DNA of 51,408 nt from a virus. Shown one piece after another: positions 1 to 51,408 of this stretch. The notes below the pieces were generated by a model. That model had not been told where the DNA came from. It saw only the letters and a program-made list of their open reading frames with translations, and ran no database searches. The position numbers and the translations under genes are program-made. Where the stretch lies: positions 1 through 51,408 of IMG/VR virus record IMGVR_UViG_3300042923_000961; one strand, written 5' to 3'. Position 1 is the stretch's first letter, and every line of letters begins with the position of its first letter.

Positions 1-17
1 AACGGATTTCCGTTTTC

Positions 18-81
18 ACTCGTAAATTCCTCCTTTTGGTAGTGGTTACCCAAAGTATTGACAGGAATTTACGAGTTTTTT
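18..81 (+). terminator. Long-loop hairpin followed by a T-run at the window edge
   Basis: The 14 bases at 18-31 are perfectly complementary to 63-76, and the right arm runs into a T-run at 76-81. The 31-nt loop is longer than in a normal intrinsic terminator, and a second small hairpin (AACGGA-TT-TCCGTT) lies at 1-14. It could be a terminator, an attenuator or the end of a mobile element; the gene it belongs to is outside the window. Confidence 0.4.
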
Positions 82-82
82 C

Positions 83-244
83 ATGCCCCGAAACTATTTA
101 CATTTCACAGAAAATGACCATGAATCTAATTTCGAAACAAGACAATCAATAAAAACCCGTATCTATAATCTGCGTGGTACTTATATCGGATGCCTTCAAT
201 TTCTAAGTTCTTTTTATGAATCATATGTTTCTAGCAAAAGCTAA
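83..244 (+). CDS. Hypothetical 53-aa ORF in the old prophage remnant
   Basis: A short open frame begins at the ATG at 83, right after the hairpin T-run, and ends in a double stop before the terminator at 273-297. I see no domain, no good ribosome binding site and no family resemblance. Its position between a hairpin and a clear terminator is the only support; it may be a gene fragment rather than a working gene. Confidence 0.2.
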   Translation: MPRNYLHFTENDHESNFETRQSIKTRIYNLRGTYIGCLQFLSSFYESYVSSKS

Positions 245-272
245 TAAATGAATCATGTTATATAGTTTTCCT

Positions 273-297
273 CCCCGGCCAACGCCGGGGCTTTTTT
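273..297 (+). terminator. Intrinsic terminator
   Basis: A perfect 7-bp GC stem (CCCCGGC / GCCGGGG) with a CAAC loop is followed by CTTTTTT. This is a textbook rightward terminator and it ends whatever is transcribed from the left edge. The 187 bases that follow (298-484) hold no gene I can support. Confidence 0.85.
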
Positions 298-484
298 ATG
301 AAAAATGGAGCCCATGCATTCGCAGTCTTTATAATGAAAAAGTTTTTCACGCGTTACCGGTTGTTTGCTCTAAGGCTATAAGCCTTTTGCTACCGACCAG
401 CGTCTCAAGGCGCTGGCCTTCACTTTGTTCAGGCTATATTGCCTTTGCCTCTTTTGCTTACCCATAAATGGGTATTCGTACTAC

Positions 485-1147
485 TCAGTGACCTCTGAAG
501 GGGTCCTCATATTCCCGGACGCTTAATTTATCCTTTACTTTCTCGGAAAGTGTTAAGTTGTCGTCCATCGTAAAATGCAGGACTAGGAAGTTCTTTTCTT
601 TTGCGTGATCAATGATCTCTACTTTCAGCCAGTGTTTCGGATGACCAGGGTTACAGTTGAAGAAGTATTTTTGCACCATCAACTGAACAGCGTCCCATAA
701 CCTGGTCGACAAATGATTTTGGCATAAGAGCCGCTTCATACAAATTCCCGCTGCAGTCAACCCTTGCACTTTATCTTGCGACTTCTCATTATCGCCACCA
801 AACACATAATAAGTGTTGTTTCCAATCTCGACCTTTGGATCGTCAGATCGAGTGTATTTATAAGCAATTCCTTTGGCGACTAGAATTTGAAACAGTGGAT
901 TCAGGACGTTTTGTTTCAAAGCGCCCATGGTCTTGCTGCCAAGGATGAAGTTCTCCCCGTCAAAAGTATCTAGGGACCAAGTCAGAAACGAGTCGATCAT
1001 AGCAAATGTTTTGCCAGCACGTATTGAACCTTTGGCAATAATACCTTCATAGTCTGCATACGGACTTACACCGGGTAACCACCATGTTAACAGCTTAATC
1101 TGCTGATCAGAGAACGGTTTGAATTGGAACCCTTTATTCTTCTTCAT
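485..1147 (-). pseudogene. Terminase large subunit fragment (SPP1-type), frameshifted and truncated
   Basis: The frame starts at an ATG at 1147 (MKKNKGFQFKPF) and shows the Walker A motif GSIRAGKT typical of SPP1/PBSX-type packaging ATPases. Further on, EAALMPKSFVDQ is readable only in a neighbouring frame, and the original frame returns at FFNCNPGHPKHW, so two compensating frameshifts have garbled the stretch containing the Walker B region. The protein stops after about 220 residues, before the nuclease domain; an intact enzyme has roughly 420. The resident prophage encodes a different large terminase with Walker A GGRGSKKS, so this comes from a separate, decayed phage. Confidence 0.8.
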
Positions 1148-1268
1148 TGTTCCACACTTCCGATGCCTTGCCCTTGAGTGCATCAACATAAGACGAAATG
1201 TCTGGTTTATCCGGTGTGCTGTCCCTGCGCTTGATATCTGACTTAATGTCATCTTTTACTTAGTATTT
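1134..1268 (-). pseudogene. Terminase small subunit C-terminal fragment
   Basis: About 44 codons are open from 1268 to the TAA at 1134-1136, in a different frame from the large-subunit fragment and overlapping its start. The sequence (DDIKSDIKRR..., ending in an acidic EVWNNEEE) looks like the C-terminal tail of phage small terminases, which normally overlap the large-subunit start in this way. The DNA-binding N-terminus is missing behind a stop at 1269-1271. The gene order matches the large-terminase relic next to it. Confidence 0.55.
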
Positions 1269-1328
1269 TATATAGATGCATTTCAAGCTATTGTAACAAA
1301 ATAATTCATTACTTTTAGTAATTCCTTT

Positions 1329-1389
1329 CAGCACCAACGGTCACCGTATTTAGACTCTCGATATAAGAGCTGTTATCAATTCCCCGACA
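1329..1389. other. Noncoding element shared with the resident prophage terS region
   Basis: The stretch begins CAGCACCAACGGT and ends TCCCCGAC. It aligns along its length, with a few substitutions and small gaps, to 30896-30962 of the resident prophage. Both copies lie upstream, in the packaging direction, of a small-terminase gene or relic. No shared reading frame explains the conservation. It may be a packaging site or a structured RNA. The remainder of 1269-1553 contains nothing I recognise. Confidence 0.5.
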
Positions 1390-1553
1390 TATGTTACATT
1401 ACACCTACCTCCTAGTTATTGTTTGTTACAAAAGAAAAAGAGCCCAAAGGACTCTTATTTTTAATACATCCGATTTATTGCCTATTTGCTGGCAAAAGGC
1501 TTGAGAAAGCTCCAGCCTTACCGCCAGTACCCATACAATACATCCTCAAGTAA

Positions 1554-1583
1554 AGAGCACCTTGCACCCGGGTGCTCTTTTAT
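1554..1583 (+). terminator. Hairpin followed by TTTATT
   Basis: AGAGCACC at 1554-1561 pairs with GGTGCTCT at 1571-1578 around a 9-nt loop, followed by TTTATT. It reads as a moderately good rightward terminator inside the old prophage remnant. Confidence 0.5.
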
Positions 1584-1633
1584 TGCACTCAAACGATTCC
1601 TAATAAAATAAGATCTCTATCCGTTTTACCACC

Positions 1634-1785
1634 TCACCATTTCATCTCCCTAACTTCCTTCCAACTATCGTGCAGCCGTGCGTTCATATCATGCCTCTGC
1701 AACGGCTCATAGAGATGAACCTTTTGATCCCCTGCCAATAGAAAAGCAATATCCGTTTTCTTTGTGACATGCCGCTCCCTCCTAA
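1634..1785 (-). pseudogene. Unrecognised phage gene fragment
   Basis: The C-terminal part of this frame (DIAFLLAGDQKVHLYEPLQ...) looks like real protein. A start-like ATG with AGGAGGGAGCGGC upstream lies one frame away, which suggests a small deletion near the beginning. I do not recognise the family. It sits in the degraded remnant upstream of the terminase relics, so it may once have belonged to that phage's late or regulatory region. Confidence 0.3.
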
Positions 1786-1796
1786 AAAAAGGGGGC

Positions 1797-1960
1797 TTAT
1801 ACCGCTCCTGGTCCTTCTCCGTCATCATCATCTTTGGGATTATCAGTACGATCAAGTCTTTTTTTCATGTCTTCTTTGACCTTCTATTTGTACCAAGGTT
1901 CAGCCAATGAAGCTAGTCGTTTACGATACTCGTCCAGATCGTTAATCAGCCGTCCATCAG
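1797..1960 (-). pseudogene. Unrecognised phage gene fragment with internal stop
   Basis: One frame reads NISDGRLINDLDEYRKRLASL, is broken by a TAG, then continues as KVKEDMKKRLDRT with a very acidic Asp-rich end and a TAA at 1797-1799. Its protein-like composition on both sides of the stop suggests a decayed gene. I cannot assign a family. Confidence 0.3.
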
Positions 1961-1989
1961 AGATGTTCAATTATGACGCGATTTTTAAG

Positions 1990-2100
1990 ACGAAATAGAC
2001 TTACTTAAGATGAATATTTATACTCATGTTGTGAAAAAAAGTCAAAGTTGAAGAAGCTGGAATGTATGGAGACTACATGAAAAAGCAAAAAGAAAATTAA
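1990..2100 (+). pseudogene. Tyrosine integrase C-terminal relic, frameshifted
   Basis: The frame contains MNIYTHV, the segment holding the catalytic tyrosine of phage integrases (the intact resident gene has TANIYTHV). It then shifts frame and ends KVEEAGMYGDYMKKQ and a TAA, a typical integrase tail. It lies 26 bp from the left rpsI copy, in the same orientation and at nearly the same distance as the live integrase from the right copy. This is what an earlier prophage inserted at the same gene would leave behind. Confidence 0.75.
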
Positions 2101-2130
2101 ATGTAGCCACAAGCCCATTTTCAGGCATAA

Positions 2131-2163
2131 AAAACACCCCTTCCGATTGCTCGGTAAGGGGCG
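2131..2163 (-). terminator. rpsI-type terminator, displaced copy
   Basis: Read leftward, a CCCCTTnCCGAGCAATCGGAAGGGG hairpin runs into a T-run. It is the same terminator as at 51293-51325 and was displaced together with the rpsI tail. Confidence 0.75.
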
Positions 2164-2178
2164 TAAAACGTTGATAAA

Positions 2179-2244
2179 TCAGCGTTTTGAGAACTGTGGA
2201 GCGCGACGGGCGCCTTTGAGTCCGTATTTTTTACGTTCTTTCAT
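2179..2244 (-). pseudogene. Truncated rpsI 3' end (ribosomal protein S9 tail)
   Basis: The 21 codons encode MKERKKYGLKGARRAPQFSK plus Arg and a stop, identical in protein to the right-hand copy. Upstream, only Tyr-Glu precede before an in-frame TAG, so no S9 body is attached. It is the non-expressed tail left at the far end of the prophage. Confidence 0.9.
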
Positions 2245-2344
2245 TTCATACTAATCAACAGATATCACTTACTATTCAACGCCAATATGAAGCTATTTAT
2301 CTCCAAATTTACAATCATGAATAATCATCAGTAATCAGCTGAAC

Positions 2345-2366
2345 ATCTTCAAAACATCTTCAAAAA
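2345..2366. promoter_or_regulatory. Integrase arm-type direct repeats, left end
   Basis: ATCTTCAAAAC (2345-2355) is followed immediately by ATCTTCAAAAA (2356-2366), two tandem 11-bp units about 100 bp inside the left prophage end. Three copies of the same unit sit next to the integrase stop at the other end. Short direct repeats flanking the core are the usual binding sites of the integrase N-terminal domain. The other bases of 2246-2479 show nothing I can name. Confidence 0.65.
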
Positions 2367-2479
2367 TTGTTTAGCAAATCATCCGGCTAAGATGACAAGG
2401 GGCACCTGCAGTCTCTGCAATTTGATAGCTTTTTCTTTTACTTTTCTTCCCATCAGCTACCTGTTTCTTCTATATTATA

Positions 2480-3957: not shown

Positions 3958-4980
3958 TTAGCTTATACTTAGGTCTTTTGCATATTCATATGAGATAGTC
4001 TGGCATTGCTTCGTTTCTTTCCAAGCTTCTTCTTTATGAGACATCTCTGACACTTCAGCAGCGTTGTGATCATTAAGTAAACTATAGACAGTATTTAAAG
4101 TACTCAATTCTTCTTCAGATAGAACATTGCTATTTAATTCTTCTGTAGCCTCAAATTTTTCAGCAGGATAATCTCCCCCAAAGTTAAAGTATGATCTAAC
4201 TATCCCACTTTCTTCTCTTGTTAATAATGTAAATAATAGTTCATAGTCATCAGGAACAGGTCCCATTGGAATATGCACGTACTTCAATCCCGTAATTGAT
4301 ACTGTAAACTTTTTAAAATGCAAAAAATCCGAATAAAATAGATATTTATTTAATTTAACTTTATATAATTTTTCATCTCTAAGAGCAAAATACTTAACAA
4401 TTTCCTTAAGTTTTTCGAGGGAAAACATTCTGAAACCAGTATCTTTGTTTGGAGTTAATTCAAAATGCTCTTCTATCTTTTTGTTTAATATCTCATCTCT
4501 TTGAGAAGATAAAATACTTTGAACATTATCTTTAATTTTTTTATATTCTCCATTTGTTATATTACTTTTATTTCCCTCTAAAATTTTTAACATATTAACT
4601 GGATCACTAAGAAGTTTTAAAGTAGTACTATGACCAGGGCTAGGAAGTACCCCGCTTTCATATTTTGAAATTGTAGCATGACTCCAACCAAGCAATTTCG
4701 CAGTCTGTCTCTGACTGAGACCATATTTTTTTCTAACTTCTGCTATTTGATCGGGGAATAATAAACCTTTTCTTTTTCGATATTCATTGTAAGCTAATTC
4801 AAAGTTTTCATCGGGATTATCAGGATCATACATCAATTCATTACACTGAGGACATTTATAATAGTGTGCAACAATTTCAACATTTTCGCCTTTAACTTTA
4901 AACGTCTTCTTTTTCGAAATTCTTTCAGTCTTCACTTCTTCTAGGCACTCAGTACAAAACACTCTCTTAAATATTTTCAT
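3958..4980 (-). CDS. MqsA-like antitoxin with C-terminal Panacea domain
   Basis: Three parts are visible in 340 residues. First, an MqsA-type zinc-binding N-terminus with CTEC and CPQC pairs (about 9-12 and 43-46). Second, an HTH at about 75-120 (GLSQRQTAKLLGWSHATISKYESG). Third, a C-terminal Panacea (DUF4065/SocA-like) domain at about 185-330 with the characteristic KLNKYLFYSDFLHFK...GPVPDDYE. Panacea proteins act as antitoxins to many unrelated toxins, and MqsA-type HTH proteins usually repress their own operon. The gene follows the MqsR-like toxin after 30 bp and ends at a strong terminator, so the pair forms its own operon. Confidence 0.85.
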   Translation of the reverse strand: MKIFKRVFCTECLEEVKTERISKKKTFKVKGENVEIVAHYYKCPQCNELMYDPDNPDENFELAYNEYRKRKGLLFPDQIAEVRKKYGLSQRQTAKLLGWSHATISKYESGVLPSPGHSTTLKLLSDPVNMLKILEGNKSNITNGEYKKIKDNVQSILSSQRDEILNKKIEEHFELTPNKDTGFRMFSLEKLKEIVKYFALRDEKLYKVKLNKYLFYSDFLHFKKFTVSITGLKYVHIPMGPVPDDYELLFTLLTREESGIVRSYFNFGGDYPAEKFEATEELNSNVLSEEELSTLNTVYSLLNDHNAAEVSEMSHKEEAWKETKQCQTISYEYAKDLSIS

Positions 4981-5010: not shown

Positions 5011-5382
5011 TTATGCATACGGATATATCAAATCTCTTTCTGCGCGGTGAAAGGAAATACAGACACACTCATTATTATTTCCCGTTGGAATAATCTGAAT
5101 TTTAATATAAATTTCAATACCGCATACAAACTTTCCAAATTCCCAAATCGCACCTTTACGACTTCCGCTCCTACTAATATTACTGTTGGGCCCGTCACAG
5201 TAGTTTTTATATGTTAACCCCAAAATTTCATGAAAGCAATTAGTGGGGCTATACCCAAGTTCAGCTAATGTATTCTCATTTTTATCGCGCGGTTTAAGTT
5301 GAATGTGACCATTATCATCGTTTATCGCATCTTTAATTTTCAGTAATGCTGTATTGATTTGTACTTTATTCGCCTTGGGCAA
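5011..5382 (-). CDS. MqsR-like toxin, probable mRNA interferase
   Basis: The 123-residue product keeps the order of features of MqsR RNases: an N-terminal helix, a conserved LGL-type turn (ILGLTYKNY), a segment before GAIWEFGKFVCGIEIYIKIQI matching the IWQDVY...GQVYLKITV region of MqsR, and a final strand VCISFHRAE like the MqsR LIVSFKE. MqsR cleaves mRNA when free of MqsA. The toxin-first gene order and the MqsA-like zinc finger of the next gene agree. The similarity is by eye and distant; a RelE-superfamily toxin of another type is the main alternative. Confidence 0.65.
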   Translation of the reverse strand: MPKANKVQINTALLKIKDAINDDNGHIQLKPRDKNENTLAELGYSPTNCFHEILGLTYKNYCDGPNSNISRSGSRKGAIWEFGKFVCGIEIYIKIQIIPTGNNNECVCISFHRAERDLIYPYA

Positions 5383-8009: not shown

Positions 8010-9131
8010 TTATACGCCTATTGCTATCCATGAAATATTACGAGCTATGCCAAAGCTGTGGAGAAAACTAATTTTTGATGTACTGTCAATATTTGTTTCT
8101 ACACCAAATGGTCCAGATGCGGCACCATTAATTCCACCAAATGCTACCCATATGTTTGTAGGAAATGTAATAGGTAAATTTATCTGAGTAACTGTTCCAG
8201 AAGGAACGTTTACTGCAACGCCCCATTGTAGTATAAGTCCTGAAGATAATCTTTGATATCCATTGGTAGAAAGCACTTGTCCAATAGAACCAGTAATCAA
8301 ACCACCATTAATAGATAATTCTGGAGTTGTAGCATTAGGTTGGGTTCCCACTTTGCTAATTGTTCCTGAATCCACACTAATCCCGTATGTGATCCCAGAT
8401 CCAGTTCTCCAGTTTCTTGATGATACAAATCCACCTCCGCTAGTTAATGCCCCGCGATAATTAATCGCCTGGCAATCTTCAATTAAGGCAACCCCCACTC
8501 CGTTATAGACATTGATTGCATATGATGTACTTCCTGTAGTTTTACCTGTAAAGTTGCAAGATACAATTCGTAAAAAAGTACAGTTATCACAATCAATACC
8601 ATCATTTGTTAGCGCGCTTGTATCAATTTTAATCGTATCCATACGGAAAGCGGCTGTATAGTTGATGTACATCGATCCAGTAATAATACTCGCTGTGTTC
8701 CCTGCACCTTGTAAATGAATTGCCCCGTTACCTACACCAATAAAATCGATGGACTCATTATATGTTCCAGCAGCTAAATTAATCGTTACTGCATGTAAGA
8801 TTACGTTAGGTAAAACATCAAACGCGTGTTGAAGCGTTCTAAATGCTGTCTCACTTGTTAAGCCATCATTGCTATCACTACCGGTTGTGCTCACGTAGTA
8901 GGTAATGTCTGCCGTTGTTTTAGAGGATTTAAACCCAAGTAGCGCACCAATATCGCTCTGAGTGTAACCGTTCTGCTGCAACTCTTGTATTGCTTCACTG
9001 ACCGTATGGAAGAGCCAATCAAAATGTCCCGCAGCAGGACTACTTCCAGCCACAAAACCGTTGTCCTTTAATGATTGAGGTGGCTCAACCCCTTCTTTAT
9101 TCCACTCTGGTGTTGGTTTCATAAAAGGCAT
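8010..9131 (-). CDS. Tail fibre / receptor-binding protein with beta-helix
   Basis: The first ~75 residues (MPFMKPTPEWNKEG...GHFDWLFHTV...) are the baseplate-attachment type N-terminus. Residues about 85-260 have the repetitive T/N/G-rich strands of a right-handed pectin-lyase-like beta-helix, opening with YYVSTTGSDSNDGLT. The C-terminus from about 290 (YQRLSSGLILQWG...PSGTV...INLPITFP...) is a gp53-like fibre tip domain ending WIAIGV. Such proteins contact the host surface. It is the only large fibre gene in the window and the best candidate for host-range determination. Confidence 0.85.
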   Translation of the reverse strand: MPFMKPTPEWNKEGVEPPQSLKDNGFVAGSSPAAGHFDWLFHTVSEAIQELQQNGYTQSDIGALLGFKSSKTTADITYYVSTTGSDSNDGLTSETAFRTLQHAFDVLPNVILHAVTINLAAGTYNESIDFIGVGNGAIHLQGAGNTASIITGSMYINYTAAFRMDTIKIDTSALTNDGIDCDNCTFLRIVSCNFTGKTTGSTSYAINVYNGVGVALIEDCQAINYRGALTSGGGFVSSRNWRTGSGITYGISVDSGTISKVGTQPNATTPELSINGGLITGSIGQVLSTNGYQRLSSGLILQWGVAVNVPSGTVTQINLPITFPTNIWVAFGGINGAASGPFGVETNIDSTSKISFLHSFGIARNISWIAIGV

Positions 9132-9144
9132 CTATTTCATCTCC

Positions 9145-9789
9145 TTAAATTGGCAGTTCATTTCCTTCGTTATCGTCATATAGTTCTCCGAGTAGTCCAC
9201 CCGACTGATCGACCACATCATAGGTCGTGCTGAATCCATAGTTAATGTTCAGATCAGGTGAACCGTAAACATTCGCAAATCGGAACGTTCCTGATAGATT
9301 TACTCGCGCTACTCGAATACCCGCACCGACGATCTTTTGAACGATTTGTACAAATTGATTGCCCGTCAGACCAATCTCACTAAGCTGAGTTAAAGGCGCC
9401 TTTTCAATCGATATGGCCGCTGGCTCTCCATCACCTGTTTCGACAAGGCTTCTGATTGAAACGTCTTTCTTTTCACAGCCTAATGTGAGTGCGATCGCAT
9501 CGATCATCTTGTCGTACGTACCATCTGATTGGTTCTGAACGATCTTCGCTATAATTAGAGTCCGATAGATTACATCACTTGTTTGACCTCTGGTTTGCGA
9601 AAAGTCCGCCCCTATCAAATCAAGTGTTGTTCCCTTAGCGTTATTCAAGTCTCTCCACTGTTCAACCGTGTTCAATGTGTCTGACAGACTATCTACCTCA
9701 TTAGAAACAATAGTTATCAACTTACCAATGTTTGAAGATGGATCCTTAATATATCGATCGGTAATCTTCGAAATCCAGTCCGAAATCAT
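9145..9789 (-). CDS. Baseplate protein, gpI/XkdU-type
   Basis: The 214-residue product follows baseplate J directly (4-bp overlap), the place of P2 gpI and PBSX XkdU. The N-terminal half (VEQWRDLNNAKGTTLDLIGADFSQTRGQTSDVIYRTLI) has the pattern of these wedge proteins. The C-terminus is shorter and less typical. It probably joins the wedge to the tail fibre encoded next. Confidence 0.7.
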   Translation of the reverse strand: MISDWISKITDRYIKDPSSNIGKLITIVSNEVDSLSDTLNTVEQWRDLNNAKGTTLDLIGADFSQTRGQTSDVIYRTLIIAKIVQNQSDGTYDKMIDAIALTLGCEKKDVSIRSLVETGDGEPAAISIEKAPLTQLSEIGLTGNQFVQIVQKIVGAGIRVARVNLSGTFRFANVYGSPDLNINYGFSTTYDVVDQSGGLLGELYDDNEGNELPI

Positions 9790-10964
9790 ACATGGGTCAC
9801 CTCAATCAACGCCACACTTGTCTGTGCCGCTTCGTTTGGATCAATATCAACATTTGATGATCCTAGAGAAGAACCATTGCGACCAACGGTGATTGTTACG
9901 TCATCGATCCCGGCTACCGCATAGACACAAGAGAATAAACGTGAATAGATGACGTCCTCTCCCATGAGTAATCCTGAATGGAATGTGCCTTCTGTGTCGG
10001 TACCCCCAATGTAATCCAATAGGGTCAGCCGAATCTGATCGTCGCCATCAATTTCAAAAGATGAATTCGTCTTAATAGAAATTTGCACTGCAATATCCGT
10101 CTCAGTCGCAAAATCAAACTTGATCGTATGCATGGTACCGCTACTGTCAACAACATCTACCGACTGACCGCCAACAGTTTCAATACCCGCGGCTACCGAA
10201 TTAAGCAGTGTGTCCGCCACGTTCGCTGTAGTTCCTCCAAGCACATAAGCATGCACAGACTTTGGAGGATTTCCAGCTCCGTCCGCCTCTATTGTGTTAT
10301 TGACAATCACGTTTGCCGACCGAACACCCGAAGTCTCAAGAAGCTTCGCCACAATCGATGGAAAGGTTGCGTTCCCTGTACTGTCACTACCGGCGACCAG
10401 TCTTTGCCGGAATTCGTTATCAGTTTCTTGATCCCGACCACCAGTTGCTGCTTCGGGATTTGAAACTGAGAAAACATTTGAATCAGGATTCGCTTGCACC
10501 GTGATGGATCCGGCCGTCACATTTGTATCGACACCCGTATCGGTCGAGACAGCATCAATGGTACCGTTCCCGTTTGCATCTAGCGTTAATTCAGCAATCG
10601 TTTCAAACTGAATCCCGCTCGCTGTTGAAAAAACGGTACCTTCCTCAATCACATAGTTCGGTTTACCGGAAATGGCCATTGTGGCATAGCTGCTTGCCGC
10701 TGGTATTCGGCTAGTCCCCATGAGTGTACTCAGTCGGTCTAACTGTATCCCCTCGGACTTAGTGACAAAACCGGCATTATAAACACTCTCAGCAAGTTCC
10801 CAAGCTATGGATAAGAACCATGCAAATAGGATAATCAAGATACCGAGAAAGGATTTTTGTGAAACATTGACGTCTGCACCCCATAGCTCCCGAGCCTTGC
10901 CCTGCATATCGCTAACTAAGTCGGCATAGCTTTTTTTCTGAAACCCATTTTGATCAAGCATCAA
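9786..10964 (-). CDS. Baseplate J-like wedge protein (XkdT-type)
   Basis: The 392-residue product has the baseplate J family layout: an N-terminal helical part (ELAESVYNAGFVTKSEGIQLDRLSTLMG), a central strand-rich region with VEEGTVF-like EEGTVFSTASG, the signature GGRDQETDNEFRQRL at about 190, and a C-terminal region with VTVGRNG. These proteins form the wedge of contractile tails and link hub to fibres. It lies between the gp25-like and gpI-like genes, the canonical order. Confidence 0.92.
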   Translation of the reverse strand: MMLDQNGFQKKSYADLVSDMQGKARELWGADVNVSQKSFLGILIILFAWFLSIAWELAESVYNAGFVTKSEGIQLDRLSTLMGTSRIPAASSYATMAISGKPNYVIEEGTVFSTASGIQFETIAELTLDANGNGTIDAVSTDTGVDTNVTAGSITVQANPDSNVFSVSNPEAATGGRDQETDNEFRQRLVAGSDSTGNATFPSIVAKLLETSGVRSANVIVNNTIEADGAGNPPKSVHAYVLGGTTANVADTLLNSVAAGIETVGGQSVDVVDSSGTMHTIKFDFATETDIAVQISIKTNSSFEIDGDDQIRLTLLDYIGGTDTEGTFHSGLLMGEDVIYSRLFSCVYAVAGIDDVTITVGRNGSSLGSSNVDIDPNEAAQTSVALIEVTHV

Positions 10965-50077: not shown

Positions 50078-51241
50078 ATGGCCAGCATTCTTTCGTATAA
50101 CACTAAATCAGGAACAAGGTATATGATTCAGATATATTCTATGGTTGATCCTAACACAGGAAAGAAAAAGAAAACGACTTACCGAGGCTTTAAGTCTGAA
50201 CGCGAAGCAGAACGTGCATCTCGCTATCTAGAGCATAAATTAGACAAAGGTATTCTAGCTCATGAGAATAATATTTTTGAAGATGTTTACTTAGAGTGGC
50301 GAGATCGACACAATAGACTTTTGAAACCTAGTACTCGATATAAAACCGATACAATATTCTCCAAACAGATTTTGCCGCACTTTCGCAAACTAAGAATCAG
50401 TGACATTGACAGCGACTATTGCCAACAGATCGTCGATATATGGAGAGAAACACTTAGCGCTTCCACCACAAAAGACTATAAAGGACACGCATCACGAGTA
50501 TTTAAATATGCTATGCAAAAAGAATATATCTTCAGGAACCCGATGCAATTTGCTATCGTAACGCCTGATGAGGAAGAATTTATCGATGACGATGAAGATG
50601 AGTTTGAAAATTTTTGGGACCGTGATCAATTTAATTATTTTTGCTCTTATGCCATTGATGAAATGGATTTTCAAGATTTTGTCATGTTTCATACACTAGG
50701 GACAACTGGTCTTAGAAAAGGTGAAATGCTTGCTTTGAAATGGTCGGACATTGATTTTGAAGAAAAATATATCCGCATTCGGAGAACTCTATTCTTCTTA
50801 AATAAAAAGAATATTAATCAAAAGGCAAAGACCAAAGCTTCTAGAAGAGATGTCCCTTTAACCGAAGAGGCGTGGGCTGTTTTAAATAAGTGGCGAACAA
50901 TACAAAAAGAAAAATATCTTGCCGAAGGAATCAAAAACAAGTTGAATTTGGTCCTTACTAGAGGAGATTTTCAGCCAGTAAGGTTAGCAACACCTAACGA
51001 ACGTCTTCATAAGTTTCTAAAAAGTCATGAAGAACTCCCCCAAATTACAGTCCATGGTTTTAGACATACTTATGCTTCTAATTTATCTGCTGCTGGTGTG
51101 ACAATTGAAGAAGCACAAAAATTTTTAGGACATAAGCGAATGGAAACCACGGCAAACATCTATACACATGTATCAAAAAAGAAAAAGAGCGCTGCTTTCA
51201 AAAAGTACGAAAATTACATGAAAAAAGCCGAAAATCTATGA
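50078..51241 (+). CDS. int: Tyrosine integrase
   Basis: Start taken at the ATG at 50078, 6 bp after GAGGAGGT; ATG at 50072 overlaps that site. The 387-residue product has an arm-binding N-terminus (GTRYMIQIYSMVDPNTGKKKKTTYRGF), a SAM-like core-binding part (VYLEWRDRHNRLLKPSTRYK) and the catalytic domain with GLRKGEM (Arg), HGFRHTYAS (His-Arg) and NIYTHV (Tyr). It inserts the phage into the rpsI 3' end 50 bp downstream. Arm-type repeats follow its stop codon. Confidence 0.95.
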   Translation: MASILSYNTKSGTRYMIQIYSMVDPNTGKKKKTTYRGFKSEREAERASRYLEHKLDKGILAHENNIFEDVYLEWRDRHNRLLKPSTRYKTDTIFSKQILPHFRKLRISDIDSDYCQQIVDIWRETLSASTTKDYKGHASRVFKYAMQKEYIFRNPMQFAIVTPDEEEFIDDDEDEFENFWDRDQFNYFCSYAIDEMDFQDFVMFHTLGTTGLRKGEMLALKWSDIDFEEKYIRIRRTLFFLNKKNINQKAKTKASRRDVPLTEEAWAVLNKWRTIQKEKYLAEGIKNKLNLVLTRGDFQPVRLATPNERLHKFLKSHEELPQITVHGFRHTYASNLSAAGVTIEEAQKFLGHKRMETTANIYTHVSKKKKSAAFKKYENYMKKAENL

Positions 51242-51244
51242 TAA

Positions 51245-51277
51245 ATCTTCAAAACGTCTTCAAAACGTCTTCACAAC
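51245..51277. promoter_or_regulatory. Integrase arm-type direct repeats, right end
   Basis: Three tandem 11-bp units, ATCTTCAAAAC, GTCTTCAAAAC and GTCTTCACAAC, fill 51245-51277 between the integrase stop and the attachment repeat. The same unit occurs twice near the left end. Confidence 0.7.
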
Positions 51278-51292
51278 ATTATTTTTAGACAT

Positions 51293-51327
51293 AAAAACGC
51301 CCCTTCCGATTGCTCGGAAAGGGGCGT
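51293..51327 (-). terminator. rpsI terminator
   Basis: Leftward, CGCCCCTTTCCGAG-CAA-TCGGAAGGGGCG (nearly perfect) is followed by TTTTTAT. It ends the rpsI transcript, and also limits read-through into the prophage. Confidence 0.85.
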
Positions 51328-51341
51328 GAAACGTTGATAAA

Positions 51342-51408
51342 TCAGCGTTTTGAGAACTGTGGAGCGCGACGAGCGCCTTTGAGTCCGTATTTTTTACGTT
51401 CTTTCATT
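51342..51408 (-). CDS. rpsI: 30S ribosomal protein S9, C-terminal end (partial)
   Basis: The last 21 codons of S9 are visible and the gene runs off the window on its 5' side. The tail ending KARRAPQFSKR-like (here GARRAPQFSKR) is diagnostic for S9; its basic C-terminus reaches the ribosomal P-site tRNA. The essential host gene remains intact because the phage carries this same tail. Confidence 0.93.
   Translation of the reverse strand, partial: MKERKKYGLKGARRAPQFSKR

Follow-up and report, generated by a model that had tools for sequence, protein, structure and literature searches.

The window analysed here, a stretch of 51,408 bases, is an IMG/VR virus record in which a resident prophage sits between two rpsI-tail repeats, with the end of another integrase gene outside the left one. 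This raises the question of whether the 3' end of rpsI has been used by two phages in succession, as the original prediction had proposed. We consider it probable (about 0.8) that an older rpsI phage integrated and decayed to a scar, and that the present phage then entered the same core. This history is supported by the remnant of a foreign integrase lying in register with the site and by intermediate states observed in related genomes.

The resident prophage and the integrase relic outside its left repeat

The resident phage is bounded by direct repeats of the rpsI end (116 bp, 97% identity; Table 1), and its integrase gene adjoins the intact target gene. The integrase gene faces rpsI, which enters the record leftward at its right end, has its stop at 51342 and runs off the record. 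Arm-binding, SAM-like and catalytic domains are all present in the integrase, and similar arm repeats are found at both phage ends. The resident thus carries a putative rpsI-targeting tyrosine integrase, for which catalysis at the rpsI end is predicted. All resident genes checked (integrase, terminase, portal and tail tape measure) are open. Its large terminase subunit (TerL) belongs to Terminase_3, with the best PDB match to 2wbn, which we take to be the SPP1 terminase nuclease. Searches of the window for tRNAs and Rfam elements gave no hits.

The host of the prophage is very probably Sporolactobacillus, as judged from sequence, because Sporolactobacillus laevolacticus DSM 442 carries a match to the rpsI tail and terminator of the window and a prophage in another Sporolactobacillus genome encodes an integrase with 56% identity to the resident one. 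In IMG/VR, scans for exact patterns of the rpsI tail, the terminator and the integrase end gave no matches, and integrase searches of IMG/VR gave no close relative. Pfam detects MqsA-like, HTH and Panacea (SocA-like antitoxin) domains in a protein encoded at 3958-4980 (-), towards the left end of the resident, and a 123-aa open reading frame at 5011-5382 (-) precedes its gene. The two are possibly a toxin-antitoxin pair carried as cargo, the role of the toxin being a guess.

Table 1. Features of the window that bear on the history of the rpsI site
Feature	Position	Strand
Dispersed IS-like segment cutting the TerL gene	359..533	not assigned
Terminase large subunit (TerL), N-terminal half only, D6E type	~1150-531	-
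Terminase small subunit (TerS), C-terminal end only	1137..1259	-
Small early phage gene, broken by internal stop/frameshift	1634..1970	-
Integrase C-terminal relic (MNIYTHVVKK, frameshift, KKVKVEEAGMYGDYMKKQKEN, stop 2098-2100)	2010..2100	+
Single arm-type repeat ATGTAGCCAC of the putative older phage	2101..2110	+
Left attachment repeat: terminator (2130-2163), last 22 codons and stop of rpsI (2179-2245)	2130..2245	-
Left arm repeats of the resident, ATCTTCAAAAC type	2337..2372	+
Resident tyrosine integrase, 389 aa	50072..51241	+
Right arm repeats of the resident: 11-bp unit (GTCTTCA) x3	51242..51277	+
Right attachment repeat: terminator and rpsI 3' end	51293..51408	-

Outside the left repeat lie the frameshifted last ~29 codons of a tyrosine integrase, with MNIYTHVVKK (2010-2039) and KKVKVEEAGMYGDYMKKQK (2035-2091) in adjoining frames ahead of a TAA stop (tblastn, E=4e-5). 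Nucleotides 2009-2096 aligned to the live integrase gene of the Sporolactobacillus genome G012 with a score of 82, whereas none of 300 dinucleotide shuffles of window 1-2129 scored above 34. The integrase end with a frameshifted tail that had been predicted from the letters alone was thus confirmed, and so were its orientation, which is that of the live integrase, and its nearly equal distance from rpsI. Integrase end, arm repeat, terminator and rpsI 3' end follow in identical order at the relic and at the live end (51241-51408). Read directly, the distance from the integrase stop to the rpsI stop codon is 78 bp at the relic, 89 bp in the G012 prophage and 100 bp at the resident, and these exact 11-bp steps reflect the 11-bp arm repeat, present once at the relic, twice in the G012 prophage and three times at the resident.

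The relic is of a lineage distinct from the resident integrase. Over integrase end and arms, it is 83.5% identical to a scar in genome G003 (103 bp) and 80.0% identical to the live rpsI-type integrase of G012, but only 64.2% identical to the resident integrase end (81 bp). Its arm repeat resembles the two copies of ATGTAGTCA in the G003 scar and not the TCTTCA type of the resident. Because the identities to G003 and G012 exceed that to the resident and the arm repeat differs, the relic comes from a different phage of the same attachment family. It is what remains of the C-terminus of another rpsI-type integrase, and it lies in register with rpsI.

Broken phage genes left of the relic

Three gene fragments on the minus strand, for an early protein, TerS and TerL, follow the relic in the order expected leftward from the integrase of a prophage. 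The early gene has relatives in Sporolactobacillus genomes, including the rpsI prophage of G012. The TerS end is 85% identical over 39 aa to a sequence in G009 (G009:C41), and its intact relative is named TerS. The TerL fragment matches Pfam Terminase_6N and is a relative of PDB 5oe8/5oea; the IS-like segment by which its gene is cut is 99% identical to a stretch of G001:C4 and 91% identical to copies in G008 and G014. Assignment of these remnants to the resident phage was rejected, since the terminases are unlike (35% identity of the two TerL proteins over 48 residues).

The fragments had been attributed to decayed packaging genes of a different, SPP1-type phage. The decay and the difference from the resident both held, whereas the type needs correction: the best relatives of the TerL fragment are of D6E type, so that the label fits only through the SPP1 Gp6-like portal that follows TerL in the intact relative of the window fragment. 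No portal remnant was found in the left part of the window. We infer that the packaging fragments and the integrase relic belonged to one older prophage, but the closest intact TerL relative lies in a prophage with another integrase, which ends at an apparent tRNA 3' end (by eye). The left fragments may thus come from a second remnant unrelated to the integrase relic.

Neither a further rpsI tail nor another far end of the older prophage was found in window 1-2129. The first 132 bases of the window are a dispersed sequence: at least four other Sporolactobacillus genomes have it at unrelated locations (82-93% identity), and its copies are intergenic where their position was looked at. Between the broken early gene and the terminase, at 1429-1585, there are short segments similar to stretches of G001 and G005.

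rpsI scars in Sporolactobacillus and other genera

The rpsI locus was examined in all 15 Sporolactobacillus genomes, and a scar consisting of an integrase tail beside rpsI was present in 5/15 species. G001, G005 and G014 have a single scar without a prophage. G003 has two stacked scars, with a truncated rpsI end (8939-9007) following the outer one. On contig G003:C7 (L082), the stacked scars span 8870-9007 and 9700-10013, and the truncated rpsI copy has another terminator type. G012 carries an rpsI prophage with a scar of about 21 codons outside its left repeat, as in the window; this scar joins a flank common to the relative G009 almost directly, with no further rpsI tail beyond it. No integrase scar was found at rpsI in G002 (over 689 bp downstream of the gene), G004, G006-G011 and G015, and G013 has at most an arm-repeat remnant (nhmmer E=0.04; E=2.6e-4 in a second search).

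From relic through arm repeat and terminator to rpsI end, the window forms one continuous alignment with the scars of G003, G005, G014 and G001, and in these genomes it extends into a complete rpsI. The four scars are this same site as it stands when no prophage is resident. The G014 scar and the G012 integrase share 91% identity, compared with 79.6% between the host genes of the two genomes, and the scar has no counterpart in the sister G002, with host genes 95% identical to those of G014. Since the scar DNA is more alike between species than the host genes, the scars point to separate, repeated arrivals of phages. A single inherited ancestral scar was rejected on the same grounds and because the scars differ between sisters.

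All seven scars, those of the genus and that of the window, keep only the last 15-53 of 389 codons approximately, a range for which the alignments of G001 and of the outer G003 scar are weak. Several of these short scars look young, some being about 90% identical to a live integrase. Unmatched arm repeats separate the integrase scar from the terminator in G014 (L095; TATGGTCA and TGTAGTCAC) and in G005 (L084; TATGGTCA and TATCGTCAC). One repeat core is common to both ends in the intact elements whose two ends were read, and the mixed repeats of G014 and G005 suggest that the integrase ends of two phages have recombined.

More than one rpsI-like match was obtained in 11/299 genomes of the order, and most of the extra matches look like copies of the attachment site. 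Integrases of the same kind adjoin rpsI in at least six of these 11 genomes, and a broken integrase does so in G230. In G046, an integrase scar of 30 codons adjoins rpsI, and a further rpsI tail with a second broken integrase follows ~1.4 kb away; these layered scars are located at G046:C6:54534-57777 (L153/L157). On G225:C1, three rpsI ends at 52514, 64292 and 74085 (L148, L167 and L159) are spaced 10-12 kb apart, as for two tandem elements. The outer element may have no integrase gene, as the 1.5 kb beyond the middle end yielded none. Among elements of other genera with the left end present, only G046 showed an integrase relic outside attL (E<1e-3, up to 1.5 kb of outer flank), a threshold that could miss very short relics. 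Such a relic is therefore not general among rpsI elements.

Several published systems resemble the window. In Streptococcus thermophilus, prophage TP-778 has a complete integrase on one side and the truncated integrase of a remnant on the other, and it was excised by recombination between the two integrase genes (PMC3952083). This anatomy, in which one end of the resident holds a complete integrase and the opposite flank the truncated one of an older remnant, is near-identical to that of the window, although host and phage are others and such an excision was seen for TP-778, while the window is known from sequence. Accretion of ICEs and IMEs with decayed elements (CIMEs) proceeds by integration, decay and entry of a new element into the attR end that holds the target gene (PMC5704250). 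The same three steps at a shared site are proposed here, and the window has what marks accretion, namely part of another integrase on the outer side of the repeat and in register with it. In contrast to that model, phages and not conjugative elements are involved, and the record does not show a far att site for the older element. The 3' end of rpsI is also the target of streptococcal ICEs, IMEs, PICI-like elements and prophages (PMC4701971, PMC5704250, PMC7487436) and of Listeria phage vB_LmoS_188, which shares the attP plan of integrase, arm repeats, terminator and rpsI tail but has an integrase only 35% identical. As accretion and the TP-778 anatomy have already been published, the window is a further instance of a known phenomenon. 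The re-use of the site is of the ordinary kind, but it is unusually frequent at rpsI in Sporolactobacillus.

History of the site and its alternatives

In the history that we prefer, the rpsI 3' end would be an attachment site used repeatedly by a family of tyrosine integrases in Sporolactobacillus. Each phage would bring along a copy of the rpsI end and terminator, which would keep rpsI intact. An older phage, distinct in integrase and arm-repeat type, would have inserted with the integrase adjoining rpsI, and its prophage would have decayed through deletions, a frameshift and the IS-like insertion to the integrase tail, a single arm repeat, the terminator and pieces of early and packaging genes. 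Since rpsI and the attachment core remained usable, the present 49-kb phage could then have entered the same core, parting the older scar from rpsI; the integrase of this phage is only distantly related to the older one, and its arm repeats are of another type. We infer the order of these events and the recombination itself; the states that they require, namely no scar, a single scar, stacked scars and a prophage with an outer scar, were all found when the 15 genomes were compared for empty, single and double sites, as the original prediction had recommended. It had also taken the lack of a third rpsI tail as contrary evidence. This lack alone would not refute the history, because G012 shows that the tail can be lost; extra tails survive in G003 and G046.

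It is unlikely that the scar alone entered by DNA uptake before the resident phage, as rpsI, attR and integrase tail from the lysogen of another strain, by homologous recombination within rpsI on one side and illegitimate joining on the other. The window relic adjoins other phage genes in prophage order, and a short uptake would not bring these, even if this route would suit the shortness of every scar, the almost direct junction of the G012 scar with the flank shared by G009 and the young-looking scars without the rest of a prophage. The reverse order, in which the present phage came first and a second phage then entered its left attachment site and decayed, is quite improbable. Either order yields an identical final structure, so that structure alone does not fix it, but the scar-only genomes G001, G005 and G014 demonstrate that the scar-first state is real, and it is the older element that has decayed, while the resident genes examined are open. 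A rearranged copy of the resident's own integrase end, which would share gene, orientation and position relative to rpsI with the relic, is refuted by the alignment to complete integrases (64% over 81 bp to the resident versus 83.5% over 103 bp to the G003 scar), the different arm repeat and the unlike terminase genes.

Beyond the succession of two phages, it is conceivable, if doubtful, that scars renew themselves: homologous recombination of an old scar lying outside a new prophage, or of the rpsI tails, with the integrase end of the new phage would delete that prophage and rewrite the scar. A renewed scar would keep the old short 5' end and gain a young 3' end, and the process might, with equal doubt, be a recurring cure for rpsI prophages. 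Such renewal would explain the uniformly short yet young scars and the unmatched arm repeats in G014 and G005, where the arm-repeat evidence amounts to a few bases in two genomes.

The attachment site in a ribosomal gene can thus be used, left as a scar and used again, with traces that persist as a countable record, and phages repeatedly swap the terminator and the last codons of an essential gene. The frequency of scars at rpsI is the interesting part of the finding. Past lysogeny at a site can be counted in practice from such scars, and whether they help to cure later prophages is a testable question.
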